Assembly: GCA_004017535.1 (NCBI GenBank)
Contig: SAJS01000021.1
Coordinates: 1-64,000 of the forward strand
From: Mesorhizobium sp.
GTDB taxonomy: Bacteria > Pseudomonadota > Alphaproteobacteria > Rhizobiales > Rhizobiaceae
DNA length: 64,000 nucleotides
Reading direction: 5' to 3'
The translations under genes were made by a program, and so were the position numbers. Below the pieces are notes generated by a model, which was not told where the DNA came from, made no database searches, and saw only the letters and a list, made by a program, of their open reading frames with translations. Shown here in pieces: positions 11,187-59,701 of this stretch (the first letter of the stretch is position 1; every line of letters starts with the position of its first letter).

Positions 11187-13304
11187 TTATCTGCTCGAGC
11201 GTCGGAGCTGGTCGAGCGCCCAGGCCATACGAAATGCTGCTTCCTCGGCCACGCCAGGCCCATGGGAAGCGCCGCTGTGGCCCCCTGCCTTCCGCATGCG
11301 GAAGACAAGCTCGGGGTCGCGATGGATCGCACAGGAACGACGCTGCGCCACGTAGCGAGCGGGCTGATAATACAGCACCTGGCCGTCGTCGAGGGCGGCA
11401 TCGACGTACGTCGGTGGAAGTGGGCGATCGGCGCTCAGGTTGTAGTAGGGATCGTAGCTGCGCAGGTACCGATATTCGTGCGCGATATGGGGATCTCCGT
11501 ACTCCACCGTTTCAATGAGCGCGTACGGCATCGTAAAATCCAGCTCGGTATCTAGGATGTCGGCGAGTGGAACCTCGGCGATGACGCAGCGGAACAAGTC
11601 AGGCCGCAAGCCGGCCGTGGCAAGCACAACTCCCCCCCCGGCGCTGGCTCCCTCGATGATGATGCCATCGCGGGTGGCAATCCCCTGAGCAACGAGCCCC
11701 TCGGCAACCGCGATGAGATCCGTATGAGTAACAAGTTTCCGATCGCGGGTAGCAGCTTCGTGCCACAGTCGGCCCAACTCGCCGCCCCCCCGTGTGTGCA
11801 CGATGCCGAAAGCAACCCCGCGGTCGAGGAGGCTTAAGCGCGCGGTCATGAACGACGGCCAAGCGAAGAACGACGGCCATCTCGATGTTCCGTAACAGCC
11901 GTACACATTTAATACCACCGGCCCGGGGGTCATTCGATCGCGCCTGGCGACCATCGAGATCGGGACCTGCACCCCATCTTCCGCCTCCGCAATGACGACG
12001 GTAGCCGCGTATTGGGCCGGGTCATAGCTGGGAACGCTGGCCTGGTAAAGCACTGCTGATCGGTCATCGGAGAGATCATGCTCAAGGACGGTGTCCGGCG
12101 TCACAAACGAGCTAACTGAATAGATCAACTTTGAACTTCGGAACGGATGTCGTGCGACCGAATAGTGACCTCCTGCCGACAGGCCTACCCTTAGGGTGTA
12201 GCTCGGCTCGTCGTGGCAGATCGTGGCCTCTACCCGCCCGCTACCGTTACGCGAGACTAGGCGTGCACGCAGTCCGTCCCGTTCTAGCACAACCAGGTGC
12301 TGTTCGAGCACGTGAACTTCCTCAAGCGTTATGCCCGCTCGGTGCGGAACGATCTGCTCCCAGCACGACGGTGACGGGTCATCTATCGGCGCACACACGA
12401 GCCGCCAGTCCGGTCCAGCGTCGTTTACCCGAAACAGGAACCTGTCGCCCCAATGCTCGGCATAGATCTTGTGCCCGAGTTCACGCCTTACAATACGACG
12501 CCATGTGCCCTCCGGTTCGTCGGCAGGAAGACACCACACTTCTGCTGCGCCTCGCTGAACGGCAGAGGAATTGTCCGATGTCGTAACTACGTCGAGGAAC
12601 AACCAGGCGCCGCTATTAGAACGCCGAACCAGCACCGCTAATCGCTCATTGGCCTCCTGGAATACCACCTCGGAGTTGCCGACCTCGACGTCCAAGCGGA
12701 CGATCTGATCGTGATGCCGCCGGTCAATCCGCTCCCGTGTGAAAAAGAGCGTGTGATTGTCGGCGGCCCATACAACTCGACCGGCACGACCCGCGTCCCT
12801 CCAGACGTCACTCCCGCCGGCCATGTCCCGCACTGTCAACTCATAGCGCTCGTCACCGATGAGATCAAAGCTAAACGCCACGTAACGCCCGTCATCGCTC
12901 GGCTCGAAAACACCGAGCGAATAGAAAACCTCGGCACCCGCAATCGTGTTCGGATCGAGAACAAGCTCGGGCGAGCCTCCGCTCACCGGCCGGCGCCACC
13001 ACGCCGGATGAGACAGGCCCTTCTGGTGCCTTTGGAAGTACTCGAAAGGCCCAACTTGTAACGCTGGTGAGGCTCCCTCGTCAGGCTGACGCCCTTCGAT
13101 CTCGGCGATGAGCTCCGCCTTAAGCCCTGTCAGGTGAGCTGTCGCCTGCTCCGCATAGCTGTTTTCGGCTTCCAGATAGGCGCCGACTTCGGGATTTTCC
13201 CGGTCGCGAAGCCAAAGATACGGATCCATCGTGACGTCGTCATGAAGGACCCTGATCCGCGGCTGGGCACGGGGAAGTGGCGGCGGCAGGCGCTTGTCTC
13301 TCAT
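11187..13304 (-). CDS. S9A prolyl oligopeptidase / oligopeptidase B-like
   Basis: A 705-aa serine peptidase of family S9A, complete in length. An N-terminal beta-propeller (about residues 60-410) precedes an alpha/beta hydrolase domain with the nucleophile in GASAGGG, the Asp in DAALDDGQV and the His in AGGHSGAS. HTRGGGELGRLWHE is the conserved oxyanion-side motif. No signal peptide is present, so the enzyme acts in the cytoplasm on short imported peptides. The ATG at 13304 follows a GAGGG and is preferred to the GTG one codon earlier. It resembles from memory y4nA/y4sO of pNGR234a. It is the last gene of a leftward group with ggt and M24; the 600-bp space after ggt suggests its own promoter. 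Confidence 0.9.
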   Translation of the reverse strand: MRDKRLPPPLPRAQPRIRVLHDDVTMDPYLWLRDRENPEVGAYLEAENSYAEQATAHLTGLKAELIAEIEGRQPDEGASPALQVGPFEYFQRHQKGLSHPAWWRRPVSGGSPELVLDPNTIAGAEVFYSLGVFEPSDDGRYVAFSFDLIGDERYELTVRDMAGGSDVWRDAGRAGRVVWAADNHTLFFTRERIDRRHHDQIVRLDVEVGNSEVVFQEANERLAVLVRRSNSGAWLFLDVVTTSDNSSAVQRGAAEVWCLPADEPEGTWRRIVRRELGHKIYAEHWGDRFLFRVNDAGPDWRLVCAPIDDPSPSCWEQIVPHRAGITLEEVHVLEQHLVVLERDGLRARLVSRNGSGRVEATICHDEPSYTLRVGLSAGGHYSVARHPFRSSKLIYSVSSFVTPDTVLEHDLSDDRSAVLYQASVPSYDPAQYAATVVIAEAEDGVQVPISMVARRDRMTPGPVVLNVYGCYGTSRWPSFFAWPSFMTARLSLLDRGVAFGIVHTRGGGELGRLWHEAATRDRKLVTHTDLIAVAEGLVAQGIATRDGIIIEGASAGGGVVLATAGLRPDLFRCVIAEVPLADILDTELDFTMPYALIETVEYGDPHIAHEYRYLRSYDPYYNLSADRPLPPTYVDAALDDGQVLYYQPARYVAQRRSCAIHRDPELVFRMRKAGGHSGASHGPGVAEEAAFRMAWALDQLRRSSR

Positions 13305-13549
13305 CACACCCTCACGTAAAAGCGATAATAATCATTGCCGCAAGCGCGAAGACTTTCAGTTGCTTAAACAACGTACTTCCGGACTAAAGTGCGCACGACA
13401 CAGTCACAAGGTCGGCACGCAAGAGTTCTTACTCATTCTGCCGCCTAGTATGGCTAGTAAGAGTTGCACAGTCATCTCATTTCGGGGAGTATAGAATGCA
13501 GATATTAGCTATCGATATTCCAGATGATAACGCGCCCGTCTCGGTACCT

Positions 13550-39938: not shown

Positions 39939-41174
39939 CTATTCGGCGGGATTCGGAAATGGTGTAATCGTCCAACCGATCAAGTCGACGGCATGTCGAA
40001 GTATGGCCTCGGTCTGAGTGGGGTTGGATGAACTGGCGATGACATGCCCCAACCAATCTCGGTAATCTCCCACCCTGGTAATCGGCGTCTTGGGTTTAAC
40101 GTACAATTTGACCTCCTTGACACCCGGTACAGCGGCCGCCCGGCTAACGCCACCGATCCAATCGAGCATGCCATCGCATTCAGGAAGAAGTATCCGCGCG
40201 GCCGCAGCATGCGAACGAGTTCTCCCCAAATTCGATTCCTCGCCGATAACCAGCTTGAGGTGCTCGGTGACAAGATCAATCCCATAAGCCAGTTGGACCA
40301 GTTGAGGATCGGGGAAGCCACCAGCCCGCGGATTGACTTCAATGACCACTGGGCCACGTTTCGTCCAACGGAATTCAATGCCCGTTGGCCCCCAGCCAAG
40401 CTCGAGAGCTCGCAGAGACGCTAGCGAAATATCGACAATACGCTCGTGCTCATGATCCGCCAGCGGGGCCGGGAAGGTGACCTCACTATAAACAAAATGC
40501 GGTGCAGGACCGAAGCTTGCGGCGCCAATCGCCAATACCTCATTTCCCATTATTTTCGCGTAATAATGAGAGCCTTGTGCGAATTCTTCTATCAGAATCC
40601 TTGGCGAAGATCGCCATCTATGCTTGCCGCCCAACAGATAGGTCGTATGCTCGACTACCTCTTCAAGGTTGCGGCACAAACGGACACCGCTGCTGCCGAT
40701 GCCCACTGCCGGTTTAAGAACTACCGGCAAGCCGACCTCCGAGGCAGCGCGTTCTGCATCCGTCGCATTTTCCACCAAGCGATAAGCAGGTATTGGAACT
40801 CTGGCTTTCTCCAGGAGCTGACGTTGAGTGAATTTATCGCAGCATTGTTCAATTGATGCGGGGTTCGGTCCCGGTAGATCGAAGTGCCGGCAGAGCGTGC
40901 CAACTGTCGAATAGACCGACTCGTTGACGGAGGTAATGCCAGCAATATCATAGCTCTCACCTAGCCGGGAACATTCGTGGATCAACGCATCGTGATTGCT
41001 TGTATCGACAGAGATTGCCTCACATCCCGCCGCAAAATAGTCGTACTGAGCTGGATCAGCTGAGAGGGCAATTGGATGAAGACCAAGACGCTGGGCCGCT
41101 TGAACGTATAGCAGGCCATTGCCCGTTGAATACTGTATATTACCTTCGAGCAAGATGAGCGTTCTTCTAATCAT
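39939..41174 (-). CDS. ATP-grasp carboxylate-amine ligase
   Basis: A 411-aa ATP-grasp enzyme of the amino-acid-ligase type (BacD/carnosine synthase-like). An N-terminal domain (RRTLILLEGNIQYSTG, SALSADPAQYDYF region) precedes the ATP-grasp core: KFTQRQLLEKARVPIPAY, LPVVLKPAVGIGSSGV (nucleotide lysine and glycine loop), ILIEEFAQGSHYYA and the metal-binding GPVVIEVNPRAGG. It should form a peptide-type bond between an amino acid and a second amine or acid with ATP. The Met at 41174 is preferred because GGAGG lies 9 bases upstream; the frame extends to 41225 without need. It lies downstream of the oxygenase and aminotransferase genes in the same direction, after a 450-bp gap. The product is unknown. 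Confidence 0.82.
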   Translation of the reverse strand: MIRRTLILLEGNIQYSTGNGLLYVQAAQRLGLHPIALSADPAQYDYFAAGCEAISVDTSNHDALIHECSRLGESYDIAGITSVNESVYSTVGTLCRHFDLPGPNPASIEQCCDKFTQRQLLEKARVPIPAYRLVENATDAERAASEVGLPVVLKPAVGIGSSGVRLCRNLEEVVEHTTYLLGGKHRWRSSPRILIEEFAQGSHYYAKIMGNEVLAIGAASFGPAPHFVYSEVTFPAPLADHEHERIVDISLASLRALELGWGPTGIEFRWTKRGPVVIEVNPRAGGFPDPQLVQLAYGIDLVTEHLKLVIGEESNLGRTRSHAAAARILLPECDGMLDWIGGVSRAAAVPGVKEVKLYVKPKTPITRVGDYRDWLGHVIASSSNPTQTEAILRHAVDLIGWTITPFPNPAE

Positions 41175-41625
41175 TGATGTAGACCTCCGTAGCGTGCTGG
41201 GTGGCATGTGAGCGTGAACGGACATGAGCCTTTGTCCGTGCCTGGCCTCAGACTTTCTGCAACGTTTTTATCATCGACAGGTACCTTCGTTCGTAATGAT
41301 TCTGTGAACTTAGTTGAAGCATCTGTTGCGGTACCATAGGTCGTGTTGAGCGATTTAAGAGCTTAGGGACAAGCGGCTGAACGCATTTACTGCTCTCGTC
41401 TTGGCAAGGGTGATCAGCGTACCGACACCGGCAACGCCGCGACGCGCGACGACCCCGAACCGCTTAGTCGCAGGTCAGGGTCTCCGAGAAGTTCCTAACC
41501 GACGAATAGGACTCTCTGGAGTCTCGGCTTGGGAGGACGTACCGCAAAGGCTTTACGGGCCATTGAGCTGGCACACCCTCACTTCACTGCTGGTGAAAGC
41601 CGGTCAGTCACTGCGAGATCCAACG

Positions 41626-42465
41626 TCACGTCCACCAGAGAACAAGGTCAGGCCGGGCAAATCCGAAAAAGCAATTCAGCACCAGGCGACGCTTTCCGTC
41701 GCCTGATTGACCGGTAACCCCGTGAACGAAGCCGCCATCGATTAGGGCGATATCCCCGGCCTTGAGCTGGAACTCGCGGCACGGGACGGCCTCAAGATAG
41801 GCTGCCGAATAGGGATATCCAGTGGTCTCCACACCCTGCGACTTTCGGTCCGCAACTGTCGGCTTATGGCTCCAGAGCCTCAGATTGCCCCCGTGCTCGG
41901 ACATGCTAGGATAGAGGTTGAGCGCTGCGACCGTATTGTGCGCCACCGCAGAAAGCTCGTAATCATCGCCAGCACGTAAGACTTGAGCGACATCGTCGTG
42001 GGGATCCAAGGAAAACGTGCCACTGCCTGACCAACTGAGAGCGCGACAGACGTTGGCCTGACCGCGTTCCGAACGGGCTAGCCGCAATTCGATGCCCTGG
42101 TTGTGAAGCTCTCGCTTCAACGCGCCGAATATTGCTCGGACCGGGTCAACCAAATTCTCAAAAAGGGCATCGACGTACGGCCGCGCGTTTTCGGCGTCTG
42201 CGAAATATGTGGCTGCATCCTTCCTGTAGTGAGATGCGCCGACATATTGTCCGGGCACACCATCTCTACGCTCTCTGAGACCGGAGCTTCCAATAAAATT
42301 CGTGGTGATCTCCTCGGCTACTTCGGTGCTGAAAGCTTGCTTGATGTGCAGAGCGGTAAGCTCACCTTTCAGGACCGAGATGATATCCGCTGTGTTGATC
42401 GAGCCGATCCGTTCTCTGATCGAAACCGGCGAGATGGCTGGCACTTGAGATATCTGACTAGACAT
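41626..42465 (-). CDS. 2-oxoglutarate/Fe(II)-type oxygenase
   Basis: A 279-aa protein with a double-stranded beta-helix pattern. Candidate iron ligands are the His and Asp in SLDPHDDVAQ and the distal His in GGFVHGVTGQ, with Arg-Leu (KRRLVLNCFFGF) behind as the 2-oxoglutarate contact. I infer a hydroxylase of a free or carrier-bound amino acid. The start at 42465 overlaps the aminotransferase stop by 8 bp and has AGGAG 7 bases upstream, so the two are translationally coupled. The fold assignment rests on motifs, so PhyH-like or SyrP-like subclasses cannot be separated. Confidence 0.72.
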   Translation of the reverse strand: MSSQISQVPAISPVSIRERIGSINTADIISVLKGELTALHIKQAFSTEVAEEITTNFIGSSGLRERRDGVPGQYVGASHYRKDAATYFADAENARPYVDALFENLVDPVRAIFGALKRELHNQGIELRLARSERGQANVCRALSWSGSGTFSLDPHDDVAQVLRAGDDYELSAVAHNTVAALNLYPSMSEHGGNLRLWSHKPTVADRKSQGVETTGYPYSAAYLEAVPCREFQLKAGDIALIDGGFVHGVTGQSGDGKRRLVLNCFFGFARPDLVLWWT

Positions 42466-43714
42466 TGTCTTGCTCCTGTAGTGCGTGTTCAAGGATGGTG
42501 ATGCCACGATCGAGTTCGGCATCGGTGATGGTTATCGGTGGGAGGACTTTGATAACGTCGCGATTTGGCCCCGAGGATTCGATAAGAAGGCCATTTTCGA
42601 ATGCGACATCGTGCACGCGGCCGACAACTGCCGGTGAACGGCATTTCAGGCCGGCCATCAGACCGCGGCCGCGCTTCTGTTCGATGTATCTTGGAAATTT
42701 CGCAACCAGGCGATCGAGGTGCGTTTGCAGCCTGACGGCTGTCCGCTCGACACCTGCAGTAAATTTCCTATCCGACCACATCTTGCACATGGCTCCTGCC
42801 GTCACGAAGGCGAAATTGTTGCCTCTGAAGGTCCCGCTATGTTCTCCGGGCTTCCATATGTCCAAGTCGGGTCGAATCAGAACGATGGATAGCGGACTAC
42901 CTGAACCGCTTAGTGACTTGGAAAGACACACAATATCCGGTTCGATTTTCGCGGACTCGAATGAGAAGAAATCGCCAGTTCGGCCCGCACCCGCCTGAAT
43001 ATCGTCGACGATAAAAACAATGCCGTGCGTACGGCAAATGCGCTGAATTTCCGTGAGCCAAGCTGCAGATGCGGCGTTCATGCCGCCTTCCGCCTGGATG
43101 GTCTCAAGTATAATTGCGGCAGGCTTTTCTATGCCGCTCCCCGGGTCGCTCAAAACGTGGTCGATGTAACTGGCGGAATCGAAAGCTTGGCTCGGATAGC
43201 CGTCATAGGGAACACGGATCACATCGTGGCGAGCAACGCCTCCCAGTTCCCTGGTTGAGGCCGAGCCCGACACCGCCAGAGAGCCGAGCGACATGCCGTG
43301 GAACGCATTCGTAAAGGCCATGACGCTCGAGCGGCCGGTGTATTTTCGCGCCAGCGCCAGAGCCGCTTCGTTGGCGTTCGTGCCGGTCGGCCCAGGAAAC
43401 TGAATCTTGTATGAAAGGCCTCTGGGTTTCAGGATCCAATCGACGAACCCTTCAATGAAGTCACGCTTTGCCGCCGTATGCATATCAAGCGACAGAAGAA
43501 TGTTCTCACCGACGAGATATTCAATCGCTGGCGCCATAATAGCCGGATTGTTGTGCCCGTAGTTGAGTGCGCCGGAACCCACCAGGAAATCGATAAAGGG
43601 CTTACCCGTCTCGTCCCAGATCGTCGCCCCAAGGGCCTTCGTAAAGACGGTGGGGAACGCCCGGCAATAACGACGAACGCTAGATTCATGAGCCGTGAAA
43701 GCGTCGGTGTCCAT
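42458..43714 (-). CDS. Class III aminotransferase (diaminobutyrate aminotransferase-like)
   Basis: A 418-aa PLP enzyme of aminotransferase class III, closest in pattern to EctB-type 2,4-diaminobutyrate aminotransferases. Motifs: GSGALNYGHNNP near the N-terminus, FPGPTGTNANEAALALAR (phosphate-binding turn), NAFHGMSLGSLAVSG, VDDIQAGAGRTGDFF (cofactor Asp) and the Schiff-base Lys in VCLSKSLSGSG. GTFRGNNFAFVTA follows. The Met at 43714 has AGAGGA 6 bases upstream and is preferred to 43732. First of a coupled pair with the oxygenase. It resembles from memory y4qG of pNGR234a, which also lies near a LuxR gene. It probably makes a diamino acid such as 2,4-diaminobutyrate. Confidence 0.85.
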   Translation of the reverse strand: MDTDAFTAHESSVRRYCRAFPTVFTKALGATIWDETGKPFIDFLVGSGALNYGHNNPAIMAPAIEYLVGENILLSLDMHTAAKRDFIEGFVDWILKPRGLSYKIQFPGPTGTNANEAALALARKYTGRSSVMAFTNAFHGMSLGSLAVSGSASTRELGGVARHDVIRVPYDGYPSQAFDSASYIDHVLSDPGSGIEKPAAIILETIQAEGGMNAASAAWLTEIQRICRTHGIVFIVDDIQAGAGRTGDFFSFESAKIEPDIVCLSKSLSGSGSPLSIVLIRPDLDIWKPGEHSGTFRGNNFAFVTAGAMCKMWSDRKFTAGVERTAVRLQTHLDRLVAKFPRYIEQKRGRGLMAGLKCRSPAVVGRVHDVAFENGLLIESSGPNRDVIKVLPPITITDAELDRGITILEHALQEQDNV

Positions 43715-44329
43715 ATTAAGTCCTCTGCACATAGTCGTCGAAGAAGAGAGCTGTTTAATGGCTAGTGGTTTGCGGCATATGTTCGTCGTTTAACATTGAA
43801 GCAGAATGCCGGAGGCAGCTTTGTTTGGTCTGGGTTTGGTCTGGTGGTGCCGGGATCCTCATTGAATATTGTTGGTTGCGTTGCCCTCCATTCGGATGTT
43901 TTCGGGGAATGTGCTGCAACAAGATGGCTTCTAAACCTTCCGCGAAAGCACCGATACTATGGCATCAGGTAGTTGACGTACCCACCCATCGCTGCCCATA
44001 GCGCCTCCGCACAAATGAATGAGTCCAAGGAGATCAGCAGGGTCGCGTCGCCAGAGGTTGTGTCGCTCGGCGGTAGCGAAGCCGCTCGCGAGCGCGCTCC
44101 TCAATAGCGCCGTAGCGAGCGAGCGGCTTCGCGGCGGTCATCAATATTCGCCGTTCAACCTCGGGCTGCGGACACCAACCTGATTCAATTGATGACCGAT
44201 GACACAGCGAAAGCCACGCTCTCTTGAGAAGAATGCGGATTCCGATCTCTTGCGCGATGACTGGCCCGAGCCGCCGGATCAAGAGGGCGGGGCCGCCGTG
44301 GACCCCCTTGACGGAAAGCCCGTTCGTAG

Positions 44330-44440
44330 GCCAGGCGGAAGCAACCGGGAGACGCGTTGGCGAAGGGCCGCATCGGTTTCGAGAACGTCCACTACCGCGA
44401 CGGCAACCATCCCCGGCCGCAGCTGGGGCTGCTGCCTTCA
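44330..44440 (+). pseudogene. ABC exporter ATPase scrap
   Basis: GRIGFENVHYRDGNHPRPQL corresponds to GRIDFENVHFRYANHPLPLY of the exporter at 48930-48990, with clear nucleotide similarity (TTCGAGAACGTCCACT). Only the start of the nucleotide-binding domain is left. Positions 43733-44330 contain no recognisable gene. Confidence 0.65.
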
Positions 44441-44554
44441 GGCCAGTCGAAAAGGAGATCGTCCGGGAGGGTGAAGGCGTTGACGAGGTGAGCCGTGAGT
44501 AAGCAATCAAGCTCTGATCGGGATCGACTAACACTGTTTCCATCCGACCGATGG

Positions 44555-44686
44555 TTGACCTGTGATCGGCGTTACCTCAAGCTAGGCAGGCCGACAAGCT
44601 CGGTTGGAAGGCGAAGACCTTTCGATGAGCTCGTCTCCGAAATGCTCGAGGCCCACTGCCGCGCCTACAGGAACATACTGGCGTAA
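44555..44686 (+). pseudogene. GDP-mannose 4,6-dehydratase C-terminal remnant (gmd/noeL)
   Basis: The frames give RYLKL, then QADKLGWKAKTF in another frame, and FDELVSEMLEAHCRAY with a stop at 44686. This matches the conserved end of GDP-mannose 4,6-dehydratases (DPTKA...LGWKP...F.ELV.EMVE.D). In rhizobia the enzyme (NoeL) supplies GDP-fucose for Nod factor decoration, so this is probably a lost nodulation gene. Only about 45 codons remain. Confidence 0.6.
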
Positions 44687-44772
44687 CGTGAAAACACGAT
44701 CGCGTCGCGGGCAGGTGCATCTGTCGTGGGGCCATCCGCACTGCCAGGCACGCCCTCTCGGCCGGCATGCAC

Positions 44773-45615
44773 TCAGGTCCGGTCGTTTGGGTCGGCGAAT
44801 TCACACATCCTGCAAAGCAGAAAACCATCTGCTCCATTCATGCGGTCGACGATTTCGCGAAAAACTGGCTTTTCAAACAGAGCGGAGTAACCCTCATATA
44901 GAAGGTTGCCCAATACGTGACGCCGTTCAAAATCCATAGAGCACAGGGTAACGTCGCCGTTTGGAAGAAGAACATTCCGATACTGTCGTGCGTCCACGCA
45001 GGTTAGGGCTCCGACCACTGGCTGACGTGGTGCAACGATCTTAGGGTCGACGCTTCCACCCCTACTGCTCACCGGCCGCGCTTTTATCAGGGCTTCGGTA
45101 GGAATAATGTCGGCTATATCTGGGTGGGGCTCGCCCAAGGCCACGAATCGGATCAAGGGGATGTCCGCGTCGACGAGTTGACGAACCAGATCGCGATACT
45201 TGTCTCCGACCAGGCGGCTGTTCATGTAGGTGCCGTCATCGAAAACATGGACCACGAATACGCCCAAGCGCAAGGCTTGCAATCGCTGCAGGTCCTGCCC
45301 GTTCATTCCCACCAGCGTCGTAAAAATCCTGATGCCATGGCCTTTGGCGAAGGCGTGCTCCACCATTTCGGTACAGTCCGGATTGAGCCAAGGTTCGGAG
45401 TATCCCGCAAAACCAATGTCGACGGAAGTCGGTACGCGGGCCAGACACCGCTTGAAATCTTCAAGATCCAGATGACTCGCATGAGACACTTTTCTTTGCC
45501 GGACCGCGAACTTGTCCTGGGGACAATATGAACATCCTACGACGCATCCCGTGGTCGTCGTTATCTCCAAAACCCTGCCGGCTGTGTTTGCTGAGCGAAG
45601 TTCCGGTAAAATCAC
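44773..45615 (-). CDS. Radical SAM protein with SPASM/twitch-like C-terminus
   Basis: A 280-aa radical SAM enzyme. The SAM-cluster motif is CVVGCSYC (CxxxCxxC) at residues 24-31, preceded by LEITTTTG; GFAGYSEPWLNPD is the GxxEP-type SAM-contact segment. After the barrel there are four more Cys: LTCVDARQY, VTLCSMDF and LLCRMCEFA, a half-SPASM (twitch) arrangement that would hold an auxiliary iron-sulfur cluster. The start is a GTG with GGGAG 9 bases upstream. It is leftward, like the aminotransferase cluster, but separated from it by 1 kb of debris. The role may be modification of an amino acid or a peptide. A degraded NifA/sigma-54 promoter lies 0.4 kb upstream. Confidence 0.82.
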   Translation of the reverse strand: MILPELRSANTAGRVLEITTTTGCVVGCSYCPQDKFAVRQRKVSHASHLDLEDFKRCLARVPTSVDIGFAGYSEPWLNPDCTEMVEHAFAKGHGIRIFTTLVGMNGQDLQRLQALRLGVFVVHVFDDGTYMNSRLVGDKYRDLVRQLVDADIPLIRFVALGEPHPDIADIIPTEALIKARPVSSRGGSVDPKIVAPRQPVVGALTCVDARQYRNVLLPNGDVTLCSMDFERRHVLGNLLYEGYSALFEKPVFREIVDRMNGADGFLLCRMCEFADPNDRT

Positions 45616-46003
45616 TGGTGATTACTCCCATCTACTTCCTGCGAAGCGCCACGATGGTGTGCGTGTGCCTTTGGCTTTCTGATACCGCCTGCTGATCTAC
45701 CGAGGCAACGCAGACATCTACCCTTTTTGGCAGCCTAAGCCGCCCGGTTCACCGATTTGCCGGGCCGACCCTTCACAAACTTCCAGCGAGTCGGACCAGA
45801 GACAGCATTGCATCTTTCGAGGCATCACTCGCTCCGGAGATGTAGCCTCAACCGTTGGTCGCTGGCCCGTCGCCGAGATGCGCGCGCAGCACCCTCGAAC
45901 CCGCCGGAGAGAAGCTTTCTGGATGCCGTCGATCATCCTTCATCGAGCGAGTTCCGTGTTCTCATGCGGGTCAGCCCTCACACTATATTGCCGCACATCG
46001 ACC

Positions 46004-46131
46004 AGCAAAGGCCGAGCTAGTGCGCCTGGCGCGCAGTTACTGCGAGATAGGCTTCGAAAAGCCCGACAGGGCTAAGACGCTCCGCTGTATTGAACCCGAC
46101 ATGTTTTCTGACGGCTGTCAGATTTTGGACA
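46004..46131 (-). promoter_or_regulatory. Degraded NifA/sigma-54 promoter (third copy)
   Basis: On the minus strand TAGCTCG-GCCT-TTGCT (46004-46019) keeps the -12 TTGC but has AG in place of the -24 GG. Two NifA-type upstream sites TGT-N10-ACA lie at 46086-46101 (TGTATTGAACCCGACA) and 46116-46131 (TGTCAGATTTTGGACA). The first is nearly identical to the site in the promoter at 53199-53214, and the surrounding bases also match. It points towards the radical SAM gene at 45615, with about 400 bp of non-coding sequence between. Confidence 0.6.
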
Positions 46132-46269
46132 CACATCACTCATCGTCAGTCGCTTAATACGGATGGTAATTTCTTCCAGGAATCGGTGACATTGAACACC
46201 ACCCTGTCATGACCGCCCAATCTCAGCGAAGCGAACTCAGCATGGCCACCAGGACGAAGCCTGAAGATA

Positions 46270-46475
46270 AATCCGCCATAGCAGCGTCAACGACATTTTG
46301 CTTTCGAACCCGGATGGATTGCACGAGGTGATTCGCGCCGTGATGCAGGAGGTGCTCGAGGCCGAGATGGACGAGGCGCTGGGTGCTTCGAAGAGCGAGC
46401 GCACGCCGGAGCGTCTCGGCTATCACGCGCGCTACTACGGGCGGAGAACTAGCTGCGCACCTACGGCGGTTCGAT
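46270..46475 (+). pseudogene. IS256 transposase N-terminal remnant
   Basis: NPDGLHEVIRAVMQEVLEAE followed by MDEALGASKSERTPERLGY and YYGR is the conserved N-terminal part of IS256-family transposases. The frame ends within the 3' end of the leftward LuxR gene. Confidence 0.75.
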
Positions 46476-47207
46476 AATCCCAAGTTTCAAAGCTTTTACA
46501 ACAGCTACCGTTCTGCTGGTCGCATCCAACTTCCGCATTACATTTTTTAAATGGAAATCTATCGTATTTCGTGATCTGCCTAAAATAGTTCCTATTTCCC
46601 ATGACGATTTTCCTTTCGACACCCAATCAATGCACTGTATTTCTCTCGGAGACAGGTTATGTACTCGTTCCGACGCAGTCGTAGTGTCGAACTTCGTAAC
46701 CATCAGATGAAACCGCAGCGCGGCCATTTGCAGGTAGGTGATCGTTCTATTTAGCAATTCGCAGTCTAAGGATTGAGCAAAACTCATAAACCTAAAGCTG
46801 TCAGCGGGGCCATGTAATGGGATGGTAACGCCTGACCTCAAGCCGAATGTTGCTGCTTCGTCCAGAACGCGGCGTCCATCTTCAGTTATGCTTTCATCGG
46901 TATACACCTCGCTCCATCGAAAGGGTCCCGCCTCCTTTCGACCTTTCTTGATGAGGGGGTCTATTTTGGCATAGCCCATTCTCGAGTAGCGCTCCTGCCA
47001 TTCAGCAGGATAATTCCACATCACCACAGAACCCTCTCGGTTCGGCTTAAAAGCCCTCTCTGATGCGAGCGGCCCATAGGCAATCCACGGGCAATCGAAA
47101 TTCAGCGCAAACGCAGACAACAGTTCGAACAACTGTTCGGATTGAGCGACATCATCAGTCATTTCGAGGAATAGGTCTAACTCCATCGCAATCCGCCGGA
47201 GTTCCAT
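46461..47207 (-). CDS. LuxR-family regulator with complete AHL-binding pocket
   Basis: A 248-aa quorum-sensing-type regulator. The autoinducer domain (about residues 20-175) retains all six residues that line the acyl-homoserine-lactone pocket in TraR: Trp70, Tyr74, Asp83, Pro84, Trp98 and Gly126, with identical spacing. The C-terminal LuxR HTH (LSPREIQCIDWVSKGKSSWE, RSRNTIDFHLKNVMRKL) is intact. No luxI-type synthase is found in the window, so here it is a solo. Plant-signal sensors of the OryR/PipR type change the Trp and Tyr, so this one more likely binds a true AHL. AAGGAG lies 6 bases before the start. It resembles from memory y4qH of pNGR234a and probably controls the adjacent leftward biosynthetic genes. 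Confidence 0.87.
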   Translation of the reverse strand: MELRRIAMELDLFLEMTDDVAQSEQLFELLSAFALNFDCPWIAYGPLASERAFKPNREGSVVMWNYPAEWQERYSRMGYAKIDPLIKKGRKEAGPFRWSEVYTDESITEDGRRVLDEAATFGLRSGVTIPLHGPADSFRFMSFAQSLDCELLNRTITYLQMAALRFHLMVTKFDTTTASERVHNLSPREIQCIDWVSKGKSSWEIGTILGRSRNTIDFHLKNVMRKLDATSRTVAVVKALKLGIIEPP

Positions 47208-47754: not shown

Positions 47755-47881
47755 ACATCACCGTCGTGAGGCGGCAGGAGCTGCCCGCCAAAATTGATGC
47801 TGTTATGGGGGAGGTCGAAATTCCAGTTTTGTCTTTTGTCGTCTTTGGGACCGAGCGTGTTGATGCGCCCGCTTGGAAACT

Positions 47882-49681
47882 ATGAAACGTTTACCCGTCC
47901 ATGGACGCGGCGCCACTGGTCGCGAAGTACTCGCCTTCACTGTCCGCCACTGGAGCCGGCAGCCGGCCCGGCTCGCGATCATCATGACCGCGATGCTCGC
48001 CTCCACGCTGGCTGACGTGTTGATGCCGCTCTATTCTGGCCGACTTATCGACGCTGTTTCTCGTGCTGCTAATGCGGCAGCACCAGCTTCGGCAGCTGTT
48101 GTAGCATTCTCTGTACCGATTGCATTGGCACTCGGTTCCATTGCCATGCGCCACGTCGCCTTAATTGGCCTGAACGACTTGGTGTTGAAAATGATTTCCG
48201 ATGTCGCGACCGAAGCGTTCCATCATGTGCAGCGCTTTTCGACAGACTGGCATGCAAACAGCTTCGCCGGCTCGACAGTGCGCAAGATAACGCGCGGCAT
48301 GTGGGCGCTCGACCTCCTCAACAGCACGATACTCGTCACGCTGCTCCCGTCATTTGTCATCTTGATCGGCTCGACGGTGCTGCTCGGCTGGCACTGGCCG
48401 GTCATGGGCGTGATCTTTGCTTGCGGCTCTCTCGTCTACCTTGCGTTTTCGATTTCGCTGTCGCTCGGCTATGTCGCGCCAGCGGCGAGCCTTGCCAACC
48501 GATGGGACACAAGGCTCAGCGGCGCGCTTGCGGACGCGGTCAGTTGCAACGCTGTGGTCAAGGGCTTCGGCGCAGAGGTTCGCGAAGACGAGCGGCTTGC
48601 AAATATCATGACGAAATGGCGGCACCGCGCGCGCCGGAGCTGGGTGCGCGGAACGATCATCGGCTCAACCCAAGGCGTAACTTTGGTTGCGCTCAGGGTG
48701 GCGGTGGTCGGATATGCCCTGCTTCTGTGGTCGCATGGATAGGCAACGCCGGGCGAGATAGCATATGTTCTCACGTCCTTCATCGTCCTGCAGGGCTATC
48801 TGCGTGATGCCGGCATGCATGTCCGCAACGTGCAGCACTCGGTTAATGATATGGAAGAACTGGTGGCCATCCACAATCAGAAGGTGGATGTTGCCGATCG
48901 TCCAGAGGCCAAGCCGATCCGGATCACGAAGGGCCGTATCGATTTCGAGAACGTCCACTTCCGCTACGCCAACCATCCCCTGCCGCTCTATAGCGAATGT
49001 TCGCTGTCGATTGAAGCTGGCGAAAGGGTTGGGTTGGTTGGACCCTCCGGTTCCGGCAAGACAACATTCGTGAAGCTGATCCAGAGACTCTACGACCTGA
49101 GCGGCGGCCGGATCCTGATAGACGGTCAGGACGTCTCCGAGGTGACCCAAGAGTCCCTTCGTTCGCAGATCGCGATCGTGCAGCAGGAGCCGATCCTGTT
49201 TCACAGGTCGCTTGCCGAGAACATCGCCTATGGCCGGCCTGGCGCGAGCCAGGCCGAGATCGAGCAAGCGGCACGGCTGGCAAGTGCCCACGAATTCATC
49301 GCGCCCCTGCCGAAGGGCTATGGGACATTGGTCGGCGAAAGGGGTTTGAAGCTCTCCGGCGGCGAGCGCCAGCGCGTGGCGATCGCGCGCGCCTTCCTCG
49401 CGAACGCGCCGATCCTTATTCTGGACGAGGCCACATCGAGCCTCGATTCGGAATCCGAGGTGCTCATTCAACAAGCGGTGGATCGGTTGATGGTAGGCCG
49501 AACCACACTCGTCATCGCACACCGGCTGTCGACAGTCCGCTCGCTCGATCGGCTGCTCGTATTCGATCGTGGCCGCATCATGGAGGACGGCGATCATGCC
49601 GCGCTGATCAATCTCGATGGTGGCATTTACCGCCGCCTGTTCGAACGGCAGGCGTTGGAGCTAGCGAAGGGCCTGGCCTGA
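47882..49681 (+). pseudogene. ABC exporter (MsbA/NdvA-like) with in-frame amber codon
   Basis: A half-size ABC exporter of 599 codons split by a single TAG at 48740-48742. The upstream part holds the membrane domain (LAIIMTAMLASTLADVLMPL, VALIGLNDLVLKMI). The same frame continues unbroken after the stop (ATPGEIAYVLTSFIVLQGYL) into the nucleotide-binding domain with Walker A GPSGSGKTT, signature KLSGGERQRVAIAR, Walker B ILILDEATSSLDSE and the switch His in IAHRLSTV. Apart from the amber codon the gene looks intact, so the mutation is recent or the codon is suppressed. The ATG at 47882 is used; the frame also opens with TTG at 47873. A scrap of the same gene lies at 44330-44440. It resembles from memory y4gM. 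The cargo is unknown. Confidence 0.82.
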
Positions 49682-53574: not shown

Positions 53575-54588
53575 TCAGCCGTTGCGAAAGGTGTAGCCGT
53601 ACCCGTTGATCGCCGGCGCGCCGCCTAGATGTGCGTAGAGGACCCTCGATCCCTGTGGAAAGAAGCCCCTCTGGACGAGGTCGATCATCCCTTGCATCGA
53701 TTTGCCCTCGTAAACGGGGTCGGTAATCATGCCCTCGAGCCGCGCGCACAAACGGATTGCCTCTTTGGTTTCCTCCGATGGAACGCCATAACCCGGGTAC
53801 GCGTAGTCCATGAACAACACCACGTCTGCCTCGACAATTTCCGCTCCGAGGTGGACGAGCTTCGCTGTATTTTGGGCGATGCCAAGCACCTGCGCCTTGG
53901 TCTTGGCGGGCATGGCGGAGGCATCGATACCGATCACGTTGCGCTGTCGACCATCCTTGGCGAACCCGACGAGCATGCCGCCGTGGGTTGAACCAGTCAC
54001 CGTACAGACGACGATATAGTCGAAGGCAAACCCAAGCTGCTCTTCCTGGGCACGCACCTCCTCAGCGAACCCCACATAGCCCAGGCCGCCGTATTTGTGG
54101 ACAGAGGCGCCGGCAGGTATCGCATATGGCCTGCCGCCCCTGGCCTTGACTTCATAAAGTGCCTTTTCCCAGCTGCGGCGGATGCCGATGTCAAAGCCCT
54201 CGTCAACCAGGCGCACCTCTGCCCCCATGATGCGGCTCAACAGGATATTGCCGACCCGGTCGTAGACAGCATCATCATGTGGGACCCAGCTCTCCTGGAC
54301 CAGGAGGCATTTCATGCCGATCTTGGCGGCGACCGCAGCGACCATGCGCGTATGGTTGGACTGCACGCCACCGATTGTGACGAGCGTATCGGCATCTGAC
54401 GCGATCGCGTCGGGCACAATGTATTCGAGCTTGCGCAGCTTGTTTCCGCCGAACGCGAGACCGGAGTTGCAGTCCTCGCGTTTGACGTAGATTTCCACCT
54501 TGTCGCCCAGATGCTTGCCGAGGCGGTCGAGCCTCTCGATCGGCGTGGGTCCAAAGGTGAGCGGATAACGTTCGAATTTTTCCAGCAT
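53575..54588 (-). CDS. acdS: 1-aminocyclopropane-1-carboxylate deaminase
   Basis: A 337-aa PLP enzyme that cleaves the ethylene precursor ACC to 2-oxobutyrate and ammonia, favouring nodulation. The PLP lysine is in [10 protein letters not shown] and the substrate Ser in GGVQSNHTR. The two residues that separate ACC deaminase from D-cysteine desulfhydrase are present: Glu in DPVYEGKSM and Leu in YAHLGGAPA. The start at 54588 has GGAGAT 6 bases upstream. It sits between two copies of a nif block. In Mesorhizobium acdS is NifA-controlled; here a NifA-type site is found at 54645 but no convincing -24/-12. Confidence 0.95.
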
Positions 54589-54644
54589 GCTATCTCCAGC
54601 AAAAAAGTACCTGAACCGGCTGCGCACCGGTCAGCCCAGGGGTA

Positions 54645-56593: not shown

Positions 56594-57757
56594 TCAGGAA
56601 GTGACAGCGTTTTGAGTTTCGGAAGTCTTGTTTTGCGGAGCCACACAGAGACCCGCGTGACAGGCAGGCTCACCCGTGTAGTTGGCCAGGGCTTGGAGCA
56701 ACGAGGTGAGGTAGCGCTGTTTGGTTTGGTCCGGCACTGGCTCCGAATGGTCCAGCGATTTGATTGCCACCTCGATCAACTCGATCGCCCGGTCCTTGTT
56801 GCCGCTCTCGTAATAATACTGAGCGACCGGAAAGTAACACCCGAATTTAAAGGGTCCATCGCCTTGCGGAGGATTAAGTTCCAGGATCTGTTCGGAGAGC
56901 TCCTTGCCCATCGCAAAGCGATCATCATGCGGAAGATGGGAGTTGTCGATCGTGGGATGGAAGAGTTGGTTCAGCGCCATCACCACCCAAGACATCGCTT
57001 CGAACTTTTTGTTGATCGCGTCCTCGACCAATTCGCGCATAAGCGGCAAGCCGGTTTTGATGTCGCGCAGCTTGTGAAGCAGAATATCCGCATGAACCCG
57101 CCGAAAATCAAAAGAGTCTGGCATCACGGCGAGGCCTTCTTCGATGGCCAATAGTGCCGCTGCCCAATCCTCGTCCTGCATCGCCGGCCCAAGTTTGGCG
57201 TATATCGGCTGACTCAGCGACGATTCGCGCACACGCGAGATTCGCTTTGCATCGACGGCTTTCGCTTCATAGCTGCTGCGCCAGCTGCCGTTAAGGACTT
57301 TCGGCAAAACGTCATCGAGAGGTGCCGGGTGGCCGATATAAGCGATGTGGCCGTCGCGGTCGACCACGAACGAGGTGGGAATCCCGAACGAAGAGCTGGG
57401 TTCCAGCCAGAGCTTTTTCATTTCGCCAGTGCAATCGAACGCTGTCCGATAATTCAGATTCGGGAACTTCTCGGTCAGCCAGGCATCCACGTTGGTCCGC
57501 GCTTCGTCCGCGGTTGCAGCCTTTTCGCAAGCTGCGACTCCGATAATCTCAAATCCGCTGTCTTTATATTTCTCCTGCAGTTCGATCAAATGGGGCATGG
57601 CGTGGACACATGGTCGGCACCAAGTCGCCCAAAATTCAACGAGGTAGACCTTGCCGGGCCGAAGGCTCGTGAGGGGCTCGCCACGCAGCCAGTTCTCCAC
57701 TTTCAGCGCAGGAGCCGGGGACCCCATACGCAGTTCCATCTTGGTGTCCAAAGTCAT
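56594..57757 (-). CDS. TlpA-like thioredoxin-fold protein with helical C-terminal domain, copy B
   Basis: A 387-aa paralogue of 51818-52993. The domain layout is the same, but the redox motif is WATWCRPC (Arg for Gly) and it is followed by VHAMPH. Both Cys remain, so thiol chemistry is possible with an altered redox potential. A 4-residue deletion falls near residue 200 (KRISRVRESSL). The start at 57757 has AAAGGTG upstream. It is preceded by a sigma-54-like promoter without a NifA site. Confidence 0.78.
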   Translation of the reverse strand: MTLDTKMELRMGSPAPALKVENWLRGEPLTSLRPGKVYLVEFWATWCRPCVHAMPHLIELQEKYKDSGFEIIGVAACEKAATADEARTNVDAWLTEKFPNLNYRTAFDCTGEMKKLWLEPSSSFGIPTSFVVDRDGHIAYIGHPAPLDDVLPKVLNGSWRSSYEAKAVDAKRISRVRESSLSQPIYAKLGPAMQDEDWAAALLAIEEGLAVMPDSFDFRRVHADILLHKLRDIKTGLPLMRELVEDAINKKFEAMSWVVMALNQLFHPTIDNSHLPHDDRFAMGKELSEQILELNPPQGDGPFKFGCYFPVAQYYYESGNKDRAIELIEVAIKSLDHSEPVPDQTKQRYLTSLLQALANYTGEPACHAGLCVAPQNKTSETQNAVTS

Positions 57758-57881
57758 TCCACACCTTTCGTCTCTTTTGTCGCGGAATATTTTCCAGTCA
57801 AAATCGGACACGGTCTCGAGGGCATTGCTCCCTCTCGCTTGCTTCAGCGAAGCTCTCACCGTGTTGCCGCACATCAAGCAC

Positions 57882-57897
57882 GGCAAAGGGCATGCCA
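57882..57897 (-). promoter_or_regulatory. Sigma-54-type promoter, copy B, NifA site lost
   Basis: Minus strand TGGCATG-CCCT-TTGCC keeps the GG and GC at the right spacing. The sequence aligned to the NifA site of copy A is deleted; only the following GTCGG...TTTCG is left at about 57975-57990. Activation by NifA would be weak at best. Confidence 0.6.
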
Positions 57898-58011
57898 ACC
57901 CTTCTTAGCTTCGGCAAGCGCCGGTACCGCCTTGAATAAGCGAGCCCTAACATGGCCAGCTGACGTTAACCTGAATGTCGGCTTTCGACGGCTCACCTTA
58001 GCGGCTGCCGT

Positions 58012-58402: not shown

Positions 58403-59701
58403 TCATATCCCGCTGCCCATTTGTTCGACTCCGAGGTCGGGCCAGCACTCCGTCAAGGGACGGTTGATGAACCCTAGATGCTCGGGATTGGCGCATGGCG
58501 CGCGCCGCAGAAGGCTGTCAAGGATGCGGCGCGCTCGCCAGGCCAGCAGCCCAAAGTTCGGATCAGCCAGCCCGCGCTGTCCAAGGCAGGCGTTCTGAAC
58601 GAAAAGGCGTCGGTCTCGCGGTCCGTCCCAGTACACCGAAAAATCCTCGCCGATGGCGAGCTCATTGCCGATCTGTTCGAGGCGATCTGCGATCGGTTCT
58701 AGGAAACCCGGCAGCGGTTTCTCGTACCCGGTGGCCAGGATGACGATATCGGCGGTTACTTCTCCGATGTTGTCCAAGCCGCGTTGCAGCGTGAGCCTGT
58801 GCCCTGCTCCGGCATTGATGCAGCGCGACACGTTGCAACTTGGCCGCAATGTGATCTCGCATTGGTGTGGCTCGAGAAAGGCGTGGTGGTAGAGCGCCTG
58901 ATAGACCGCGCGCAACTTGCTTTCTGAAATGCCCTCGGAGGCAAGCGCGAAACGCCGCAGGAACAGCTGTCGATGCACCTCGCTCATCGCAGCAAAACGA
59001 TCCGAGAAGCATGGCGTGAACAGCCCGTTTGTGAACGCGTGGTCGTCGAAAGGCATCTCGCGCGTCAAGACCCATGTGATCGCCGCGGGCCGCCGTTCTT
59101 TCGGCCGGCCGACAAGGTGCAGTAGCAGCTCGGCTCCCGACTGTCCGCCGCCAACAACGCAGACATGCTTTTTTTGCACCTCAGGATTGATGTGGGCCAA
59201 CTCAGATGAGTGGAACAGGTTGGGTCCAGTCCAGCCATGAAACTGAGGCGGAATTTGCGCCTGCTTGCCTATGTCGATGACGAGGTTTCTTGCATCAAGG
59301 ACCGCGTTGTCCGTCCGCACGCGAAACTCGCCGTCAAAGCGGATTTCGCGAACGGCCTCGCCGCCACGGACAAGCGGATTCTTCTGGAACGCCCAGTTGA
59401 GATATTGGGCGAACTCGGCTCTAAGCACCCCGTGAAATTGCGCATTGAGGAAATTGTAAAGACGCCCGTTCTCGTGGAGGTAGTTTACGAATGTGTAGGC
59501 TGATCGCGGATTGACCAGAGTAACCAGATCCTGGAAGTGGCCGACCTGGAGCTCCGCGCAATCGAAAGCGCTGCCTGGATGTCCTCGGAAATCGACCTCC
59601 CGGTCCAGGAACAGTGCCCCTTGCGCAATCTCTTCCTGTATCTGACACGCAAGGCTCAAATTAGATGGTCCAGCACCCACACCAATACAAAAGAGGTCCA
59701 C
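58403..59701 (-). CDS. L-lysine/L-ornithine N-monooxygenase family protein
   Basis: A 432-aa flavin N-hydroxylating monooxygenase (SidA/IucD/PvdA type), using FAD, NADPH and O2 to hydroxylate a side-chain amine. Motifs: GVGAGPSNLSLA (FAD), FRGHPGSAFDCAELQVGHFQ region, VCVVGGGQSGAELLLHL (NADPH) and DIVILATGYEKPLPG. Start is a GTG with GAGGAG and AAGGA upstream. No siderophore synthetase, acyltransferase or transporter is found nearby, so the hydroxylated product is unknown. Its place between nif genes suggests symbiosis-linked expression, but no promoter is visible in the 840 bp upstream. Confidence 0.85.
   Translation of the reverse strand: MDLFCIGVGAGPSNLSLACQIQEEIAQGALFLDREVDFRGHPGSAFDCAELQVGHFQDLVTLVNPRSAYTFVNYLHENGRLYNFLNAQFHGVLRAEFAQYLNWAFQKNPLVRGGEAVREIRFDGEFRVRTDNAVLDARNLVIDIGKQAQIPPQFHGWTGPNLFHSSELAHINPEVQKKHVCVVGGGQSGAELLLHLVGRPKERRPAAITWVLTREMPFDDHAFTNGLFTPCFSDRFAAMSEVHRQLFLRRFALASEGISESKLRAVYQALYHHAFLEPHQCEITLRPSCNVSRCINAGAGHRLTLQRGLDNIGEVTADIVILATGYEKPLPGFLEPIADRLEQIGNELAIGEDFSVYWDGPRDRRLFVQNACLGQRGLADPNFGLLAWRARRILDSLLRRAPCANPEHLGFINRPLTECWPDLGVEQMGSGI

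Follow-up and report, generated by a model that had tools for sequence, protein, structure and literature searches.

A set of five leftward genes in Mesorhizobium sp., lying within a stretch of 64,000 nucleotides (contig SAJS01000021.1, positions 1 to 64,000; hereafter the window), encodes an ATP-grasp ligase, a 2-oxoglutarate (2OG)/Fe(II) oxygenase (OG), a diaminobutyrate--2-oxoglutarate aminotransferase of the EctB/Dat type (AT), a radical S-adenosylmethionine protein with a SPASM domain (rSAM) and a LuxR-family regulator. We propose, with a probability of roughly 0.6, that in this set Mesorhizobium has its own form of a nodulation-linked and LuxR-linked pathway of the bacteroid stage, which would run from aspartate via aspartate semialdehyde and L-2,4-diaminobutyrate (DABA) to a ligated and here probably hydroxylated small molecule. 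The initial annotation had placed all five genes in a single small-molecule pathway on the grounds of proximity and direction. This idea holds up for AT and OG, which form one unit; it is well supported at the family level for the ATP-grasp ligases and the LuxR regulators, AT being tied to LuxR and, more loosely, to ATP-grasp on other symbiotic replicons; and it is weak for rSAM. The argument draws on the family assignments, the coupling and occasional fusion of AT and OG, the co-occurrence of the families, their restriction to nodA-positive genomes in our samples, the LuxR-AT linkage and a lux-type dyad at the DABA-pathway promoters of relatives, all observed here, and, by analogy, on findings made by others in relatives, namely DABA-AT activity, DABA in pea bacteroids and nodule-stage expression of AT and neighbouring ligases (see below).

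How might such a pathway work? AT would aminate aspartate semialdehyde to DABA, converting glutamate to 2-oxoglutarate, and the tightly coupled OG would use up 2-oxoglutarate in hydroxylating DABA or a DABA-derived product. The ATP-grasp ligase would then form an amide between this amino acid and a partner, either another amino acid or an acid, and the LuxR protein would couple the pathway to an acyl-homoserine-lactone (AHL) signal, with expression chiefly in bacteroids and with a product that is most likely exported. The substrates of OG and of the ligase, the product, its export and the LuxR control of these genes in this strain are what we infer. The features concerned are the following.

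39939..41225, minus strand: ATP-grasp carboxylate-amine ligase of the L-amino acid ligase type, 428 aa (LAL_C2, ATP-grasp_3)
41626..42465, minus strand: 2OG/Fe(II) oxygenase (OG), 279 aa; ATG at 42465, 8-bp overlap with the AT stop
42458..43732, minus strand: diaminobutyrate--2-oxoglutarate aminotransferase (AT; EctB/Dat type), 424 aa (TIGR02407)
43733..44772, no strand: spacer between rSAM and AT, 1,040 bp, with repeat debris
44773..45615, minus strand: radical SAM/SPASM protein (rSAM), 280 aa; probably a linked bystander
45718..45733, minus strand: lux-type dyad (CTGCC-N6-GGTAG); the rSAM start lies about 110 bp downstream
46461..47207, minus strand: LuxR-family regulator with autoinducer-binding domain, 248 aa (Autoind_bind, GerE)
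47873..49681, plus strand: ABC exporter-like gene, divergent from LuxR; possible product exporter
11190..13307, minus strand: S9 prolyl-oligopeptidase-type peptidase, 79% identical to its pNGR234a relative; possible accessory, membership weak

Protein families of the five genes

All five leftward open reading frames (ORFs) are present and intact, and domain profiles agree with the families under which they had first been named. The ATP-grasp protein scored 56.9 bits with LAL_C2 (cut-off 29.4) and 52.1 bits with ATP-grasp_3 (cut-off 23.2), and thus has the ATP-grasp plus C-terminal LAL domain by which an L-amino acid ligase is predicted; K171, E296, N298 and R300 are invariant in 20 aligned sequences, and its solved relatives include the L-amino acid ligase 3vot. 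AT reached 630.3 bits with the EctB model TIGR02407 (cut-off 552.2), the score expected of an EctB/DABA aminotransferase, and aligned with the solved EctB 6rl5 across almost its entire length; the second-best AT match in its own genome is only 32% identical, and neither ectA nor ectC was seen among the window ORFs scanned, which were a part of the total. The LuxR protein scored above the cut-offs of both Autoind_bind (111.7 bits) and GerE (63.4 bits), the domain pair of quorum-sensing regulators, and its best solved relative by score is LasR (E 2.7e-25). For rSAM, the SPASM score lies above its cut-off and the Radical_SAM score slightly under (26.9 vs 29.5). The debris of about 1 kb that had been noticed between rSAM and AT was confirmed as a gap of 1,040 bp, of which approximately 44028-44186 matches unannotated repeats on many Sinorhizobium plasmids.

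In our own Nei-Gojobori count, with two to four comparisons per gene, dN/dS was 0.10-0.21 for OG and AT, 0.15-0.18 for rSAM and 0.26-0.31 for LuxR; for ATP-grasp, compared with two copies that are more distant, it was 0.35. A LuxR/LuxI pair was not found: there is no AHL synthase gene adjacent to LuxR, and none of the three synthase matches in the genome lies on contig C13. A 91-kb contig carries both a second ATP-grasp copy (62%; G000:C16:1851-3080) and the AHL synthase with the highest score in the genome (C16:82830-83351).

AT and OG form one unit

AT lies directly upstream of OG in all 58 loci compared, 54 of them fetched by OG from named genomes and four being further plasmid loci (a fifth OG plasmid, NZ_CP015322, belongs to each of the two sets, as L001 and L057). 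An unbroken OG is found in 57 of the 58 (the exception is L066) and an unbroken AT in 56 (it is in pieces in L037 and L066); two Bradyrhizobium loci (L064, L065) carry the pair as well, and in Rhizobium jaguaris (L005) AT and OG are a single ORF of 696 aa. Among 146 Mesorhizobium genomes, AT orthologues (at least 83% identical) and OG were found in the identical 77, with AT partial in G045 and G142. These observations support a true AT-OG unit. The 8-bp overlap reported initially also stands: the mechanical ORF list had put the OG start earlier, at 42522, and the alignment supports the ATG at 42465, from which the overlap with the AT stop follows. Decay of OG was considered because nine of the 77 genomes drew a stop flag within OG in the genome search (and three within AT). 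Five of the nine could be matched, by contig and coordinates, to L046, L047, L050, L061 and L066; in the first four of these, as in L004, the stop precedes the true OG start, so the flags mostly do not signify decay, and only L066 is broken.

What chemistry would OG perform? The HxD motif, a distal His and an Arg make up the complete residue set of a 2OG/Fe(II) hydroxylase-type enzyme, and H165-x-D167, H257 and R269 (alignment numbering, nine higher than in the 279-aa protein) are kept in 25 of 25 aligned sequences. The WelO5 model was the one to score above its cut-off (43.6 bits vs 27), the generic 2OG-FeII_Oxy_3 model staying under (20 vs 27). In WelO5-type halogenases, however, the metal-binding Asp of HxD is swapped for a small residue, and a halogenase was rejected because HxD is intact in all 25 sequences. 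The score with the model of the L-isoleucine dioxygenase HilA was far under the cut-off (NF041274, 84.2 vs 500 bits), and solved-structure searches with OG and with an OG profile gave nothing useful. Homologues 29-31% identical to OG occur in nonribosomal peptide synthetase (NRPS) clusters of Streptomyces angustmyceticus and S. tendae. The one in S. angustmyceticus directly follows an ATP-grasp gene, which shows 27% over 254 aa, and the 2,3-diaminopropionate genes sbnA and sbnB lie nearby; unlike the window set, these clusters are NRPS-based and distant, and no EctB-like AT is listed in the stretches. Because one of these OG relatives adjoins an ATP-grasp gene and lies near diaminopropionate genes, a diamino acid or a derivative of one would be a fair guess, and no more than that, for the OG substrate.

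Gene order in relatives of the window locus

In 21 close Mesorhizobium loci (87-100% identity) the order LuxR, rSAM, AT, OG is conserved, and the ABC exporter-like gene lies beyond LuxR; LuxR is in two pieces in L018 and L019. The place of the ATP-grasp gene in the window is rare, whereas its presence in the neighbourhood recurs: 18 of the 58 other loci have a relative (58-69%) in the fetched stretch, in varied places and on varied strands, and in four it is cut at the end of the stretch. Some loci stop at contig ends, and all such neighbour counts are lower bounds. Whether the five families co-occur elsewhere had been posed as a check on the initial annotation, and they do: all five are found in the fetched stretch of four of the 58 other loci (L021, L023, L031 and L050), albeit in another order or on another strand, ATP-grasp being truncated by the stretch end in the first three. 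The rSAM gene, by contrast, sits on three other plasmids beside hup (hydrogenase) genes, beside nifB/nifZ, or among insertion sequences (IS) and other genes, and not beside AT-OG; it is probably a bystander rather than a pathway enzyme.

Further genes recur around AT-OG. An AT of the 49% type and an IucA/IucC gene stand next to OG in six loci, and the OG-type loci L050, L054 and L062 carry a KamA-family radical SAM gene near ATP-grasp. A possible second module comprises an IPNS-like 2OG oxygenase, seen near AT-OG in 21 loci, and a GMC oxidoreductase, seen there in 17 (L019 16536-19725 is an example); queE/queD/queC genes recur there too. In L074 and L077 (S. mexicanum and S. garamanticum), ATP-grasp lies between an NRPS/polyketide synthase gene and an M81 peptidase gene.

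LuxR, AT and ATP-grasp on other symbiotic plasmids

Is the link of AT to LuxR and to ATP-grasp a peculiarity of these loci? Among the matches listed, AT lies within 2 kb of a relative (37-64%) of the window LuxR in 19 of 37 rhizobial plasmid records, 15 times on the same strand, against 0.32 expected at random; in 18 of these 19 the AT is divergent (50-54%), and in the remaining record it is the R. jaguaris fusion. For ATP-grasp, 18 of 34 records have a copy no more than 30 kb from AT, against 4.6 expected. The test covered 42 records, with the best place per record, and drew on the best 60 of 62 AT records and the best 60 of 100 ATP-grasp records; of 45 LuxR records, eight without an AT among the matches listed were left out. 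Random placement over the whole plasmid disregards the clustering of symbiosis genes, and P values throughout are uncalibrated because the genomes and plasmids are related, some being near-identical (e.g. CP148093/CP149874, CP120369/CP120372 and CP140943/CP140954).

Individual plasmids give these associations a shape. On pHRC017 (S. meliloti) the order is ATP-grasp, KamA-family radical SAM, ATP-grasp, aspartate-semialdehyde dehydrogenase (ASADH), AT and LuxR; in Mesorhizobium AR07 it is LuxR, an OG remnant, a KamA-family gene, AT and an ATP-grasp gene, the last transcribed divergently from the ASADH and aspartate-kinase-like genes. Both clusters share LuxR, AT, ATP-grasp, ASADH and the lux-type dyad with the proposed pathway or its promoters, but their AT is 52-53% identical to that of the window, and in place of OG they have the KamA-family radical SAM gene and the aspartate-kinase-like gene (a mere fragment on pHRC017), AR07 keeping an OG remnant only. 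Another such remnant lies near LuxR in S. americanum NZ_CP013109, and the remnants tie the OG version to the wider LuxR-AT family. On pRlvC of R. leguminosarum UPM791 the order is nif genes, redoxin, AT, ATP-grasp, Ddl, GlutR-like, ATP-grasp and a major facilitator superfamily (MFS) transporter, with ASADH and an aspartate-kinase-like gene on the opposite side of nif. On pNGR234a, for which the initial annotation had named a similar group (y4q genes), LuxR stands beside a 53% AT, followed by an S9 peptidase of which window 11190-13307 is a 79% relative; pNGR234a gave no OG match, no ATP-grasp is annotated in the two fetched stretches, the y4q names do not occur in the gene tables viewed, and no relevant paper on them was found in the open-licence literature. 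Beyond rhizobia, the bacilysin (BacD) and dapdiamide pathways reportedly use an ATP-grasp ligase to couple a non-protein amino acid, and BacD and L-amino acid ligases are sequence relatives of the window protein; amino acid source, regulator and host differ.

Restriction to nodA-positive genomes in the samples

NodA is present in 101 of the 146 Mesorhizobium genomes. AT/OG occurs in 77 of the 101 and in none of the 45 nodA-negative genomes, ATP-grasp relatives (E up to 1e-100; one to six copies each) in 94 and none, and LuxR relatives (E up to 1e-60) in 68 and none. Within the nodA-positive genomes OG and LuxR co-occur (61 with both, 16 with OG only, 7 with LuxR only, 17 with neither; P 1e-5, not corrected for relatedness). 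In a family sample of 296 genomes, ATP-grasp (here E up to 1e-120) was found in 9 of the 18 that carry a full-length NodA (E up to 1e-80) and in none of the other 278; in an order sample of 297 genomes the corresponding figures were 4 of 7 and 0 of 290. At a looser limit, 98 of 100 plasmid records with the family belong to Rhizobium, Sinorhizobium or Mesorhizobium. At most 12 ATP-grasp candidates were scored per genome in the genus sample and at most 5 in the family and order samples, so misses are possible; some genomes are common to several samples, and the genus genome lists, like the plasmid gene positions, were transcribed by hand from printed lists.

A lux-type dyad at DABA-pathway promoters in relatives

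The initial annotation had suggested control by LuxR. Seven aligned LuxR-AT intergenic regions have the pattern CT-N2-C-N6-GGTAG in common, 142-178 bp before AT, against a background of 0.0084 per 250 bp in all DNA then fetched, and the dyad stands at this distance in 9 of 12 fetched divergent-type loci. A CT-N12-AG dyad of this kind resembles las/rhl boxes. An inverted repeat at a Mesorhizobium I1 promoter has likewise been aligned with las/rhl-like boxes (PMC10470506). Because the seven tandems had been picked for an adjacent LuxR, this discovery set is no independent test of the pattern, which was itself found from their alignment; the copies in AR07, S. mexicanum, pHRC017 and L067 are later finds. 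Perfect dyads precede AT in AR07 and S. mexicanum, and AR07 has two further copies in the promoter between ATP-grasp and the ASADH-aspartate kinase genes; four of the five strict copies in its 1.02-Mb plasmid lie within the 30 kb around LuxR, AT and ATP-grasp. The sole strict copy in the 298 kb of pHRC017 sits 715 bp before ASADH. Finally, the dyad occurs about 370-400 bp before an IucA/IucC-type synthetase gene (L092 10564-12864) or its look-alike (L067 2797-5092), the synthetase so preceded in AR07 being FslA-like, albeit under the cut-off of that model. LuxR control gains from the boxes upstream of DABA-pathway genes in relatives and loses from their absence at the corresponding window genes, as set out below; the only box close to the window set precedes rSAM, the probable bystander, and it is found upstream of rSAM in 13 of 30 rSAM loci, all with a nearly identical rSAM.

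Other promoter elements were less informative. Near-perfect palindromes in the intergenic regions were confined to L086, at another place, and a conserved promoter upstream of the OG-type AT was rejected, as there is little conservation beyond the stretch by the start. Control by NifA/RpoN was set aside too, since the single -24/-12 (RpoN) pattern used had no match within 600 bp upstream of the five window genes; the NifA-type motif TGT-N10-ACA has one match upstream of AT (-63), one upstream of LuxR (-218) and two upstream of rSAM.

Published data on relatives

The closest experimental precedent is the dat (RLV_1844) cluster of UPM791, in which two ATP-grasp ligases of the same family as that of the window adjoin a DABA aminotransferase, with nif genes alongside; it differs in that its AT is about 52% identical, neither OG nor a window-type LuxR was found on the plasmid, and a Ddl-type ligase, a GlutR-like protein and an MFS transporter are added. 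UPM791 Dat, that 52% relative, has DABA-AT activity; DABA is found in pea bacteroids and is gone in the dat mutant, which shows poorer symbiotic performance and competitiveness on pea and grows more weakly on homoserine; pantothenate auxotrophy is relieved by DABA (PMC10228743). The text of that paper gave no match for ATP-grasp or LuxR. By our own mapping, from order and length, RLV_1844, 1845, 1846, 1848 and 1849 would be AT, ATP-grasp, Ddl, GlutR-like and the second ATP-grasp. Their values in pea/lentil bacteroids are 182/22, 52/0, 111/42, 128/64 and 76/35, respectively, and RLV_1844 and RLV_1848 were undetected in vegetative cells (PMC7950203).

The msi260 gene of M. loti R7A is probably the orthologue of the window AT, because L056 (CJ3sym, which we take to carry the R7A symbiosis island) shows the same AT neighbours, iscN, iscU and acdS. 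It is expressed in nodules, where msi260::lacZ gave 1339 units and only 5 in a nifA2 mutant, and is counted among the M. loti genes lacking a -24/-12-type promoter (PMC3538637); in the parts of the account at hand, by contrast with the window set, no OG, LuxR or ligase figures beside it. In P. phymatum, ectB was down 7.58 log2 in nifA-mutant nodules, with aspartate semialdehyde and DABA lower (PMC8305402), and in R. tropici CIAT 899 ectB is reported to be present while the other genes of the ectoine route are missing (PMC3557214). Two ATP-grasp genes, which may belong to this family, flank an MFS permease on S. meliloti pSmeLPU88b (PMC10194956). The texts of bacteroid transcriptome studies contained no relevant terms for NGR234 and no match for diaminobutyrate, biotin carboxylase or aspartate-semialdehyde for R. 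leguminosarum, and no paper joining the aminotransferase to the ligases or to OG was seen in our searches of the open-licence literature.

Points against the pathway and alternative explanations

Several observations weigh against the pathway proposed here. In the window itself, no strict dyad precedes AT or ATP-grasp within 400 bp, or LuxR within 700 bp; a strict box within 400 bp upstream is also lacking for every OG-type AT hit (L003 has a near match at -575), and for the divergent AT of L073, L075 and L076 no box stands upstream. A reversed control pattern is commoner than the dyad, both in the genome (153 vs 35) and on four plasmids (7, 5, 4 and 20 vs 5, 1, 2 and 5), so that the evidence lies in where the dyad stands and not in how often it occurs, and the lone site in the window is weak evidence. 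The near relatives do not have ATP-grasp adjacent to OG, and L003 (S. meliloti LMB1) is the only one of the 58 loci with ATP-grasp beside OG on the same side and strand, 0.8 kb off, in a fetched stretch without LuxR and rSAM. The ABC exporter-like gene, about 600 aa long in the 21 relative loci, is interrupted in the window by one in-frame stop, at codon 290. UPM791, with the best protein evidence, has no LuxR of the window type on pRlvC among the matches listed, and two Azospirillum plasmids carry ATP-grasp relatives at the looser limit. The M. loti msi260 mutant is fully effective (PMC3538637), and Bphy_7724, an ATP-grasp-domain gene of P. phymatum that may be related, is up 2.26 in nifA-mutant nodules (PMC8305402). 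Finally, symbiosis genes cluster on mobile replicons, so that co-occurrence alone is no proof of one pathway.

Could the genes then have met by chance, as separately mobile elements of the symbiosis region among which AT-OG is the sole true unit? The IS debris around the five genes and the varying positions of ATP-grasp and rSAM would fit such an origin, but the closeness of LuxR and AT and the enrichment of ATP-grasp near AT among the plasmid matches listed, together with the gathering of the same kinds of gene on pHRC017, UPM791 and AR07 and of all five families in four of 58 loci, make it rather unlikely. We regard as comparably unlikely a role in primary metabolism, as proposed for R. leguminosarum Dat, in which AT would feed DABA into homoserine use or beta-alanine/pantothenate synthesis, OG would degrade or modify DABA, and the ATP-grasp ligase would be unrelated. 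The weaker growth of the dat mutant on homoserine and the relief of pantothenate auxotrophy by DABA (PMC10228743) speak for this role, as does the frequent separation of AT-OG from ATP-grasp; the fact that pea bacteroids are rich in Dat together with the ATP-grasp, Ddl and GlutR-like proteins encoded beside it (PMC7950203) speaks against it, as do the AR07 dyads at both the AT and the ATP-grasp promoter and the adjoining aspartate-kinase-like and ASADH genes, which fit biosynthesis. Still less probable, in our estimate, is that the pathway makes a metallophore for use in the nodule, derived from DABA and of the carboxylate or hydroxamate type. The dyads before the sub-cut-off, FslA-like synthetase in AR07 and its look-alike in L067, the 49% AT and IucA/IucC gene that adjoin OG in six loci, and the Lys/Orn N-hydroxylase at 58406-59701 of the window all hint at such a product; yet no IucA/IucC gene was seen among the window ORFs scanned, a part of the whole, and the window AT is of the OG type rather than the 49% type. 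ATP-grasp ligases are also not known to be part of NRPS-independent siderophore routes.

A wider family of DABA-derived amides?

Does the nodulation-linked DABA pathway proposed for the window belong to something larger? As a speculation that we consider possible though doubtful, the nodulating Rhizobiaceae might share a LuxR-gated, bacteroid-stage family of DABA-derived amides, made out of aspartate by a dedicated kinase, dehydrogenase and aminotransferase, modified by an oxygenase or aminomutase, and joined by diversifying ATP-grasp ligases that accompany nod genes in most Mesorhizobium symbionts; the ligase mix would give each symbiotic replicon its own product, perhaps a private nutrient or a host-directed signal. 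If right, the pathway proposed for the window would itself connect the separately published nodule-stage DABA aminotransferases of M. loti, R. leguminosarum and P. phymatum with unassigned ATP-grasp ligases seen only in the nodA-positive genomes sampled, would turn the question of why bacteroids make DABA into a testable small-molecule question, and would offer a possible target set for the LuxR regulators of symbiotic replicons.

Other genes of the window

A run of peptide-handling genes occupies window positions 1381-34289 and includes two M24 peptidases, an M20 peptidase, two S9 peptidases, a gamma-glutamyltranspeptidase, a glutamine-synthetase-like gene and DAO genes, as well as genes 35-46% identical to parts of the dipeptide ABC transporter of L003; its role could be to take up small peptides or to break them down. 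On the other side of the set lie a PALP-family gene (ACC deaminase-like; 53578-54627), a redoxin gene (56597-57898) and the Lys/Orn N-hydroxylase gene already mentioned, all of which recur near AT-OG elsewhere. An annotated L-lysine 6-monooxygenase of M. loti, msi280, is NifA-regulated (PMC3538637), and its tie to the window N-hydroxylase is by family name only.

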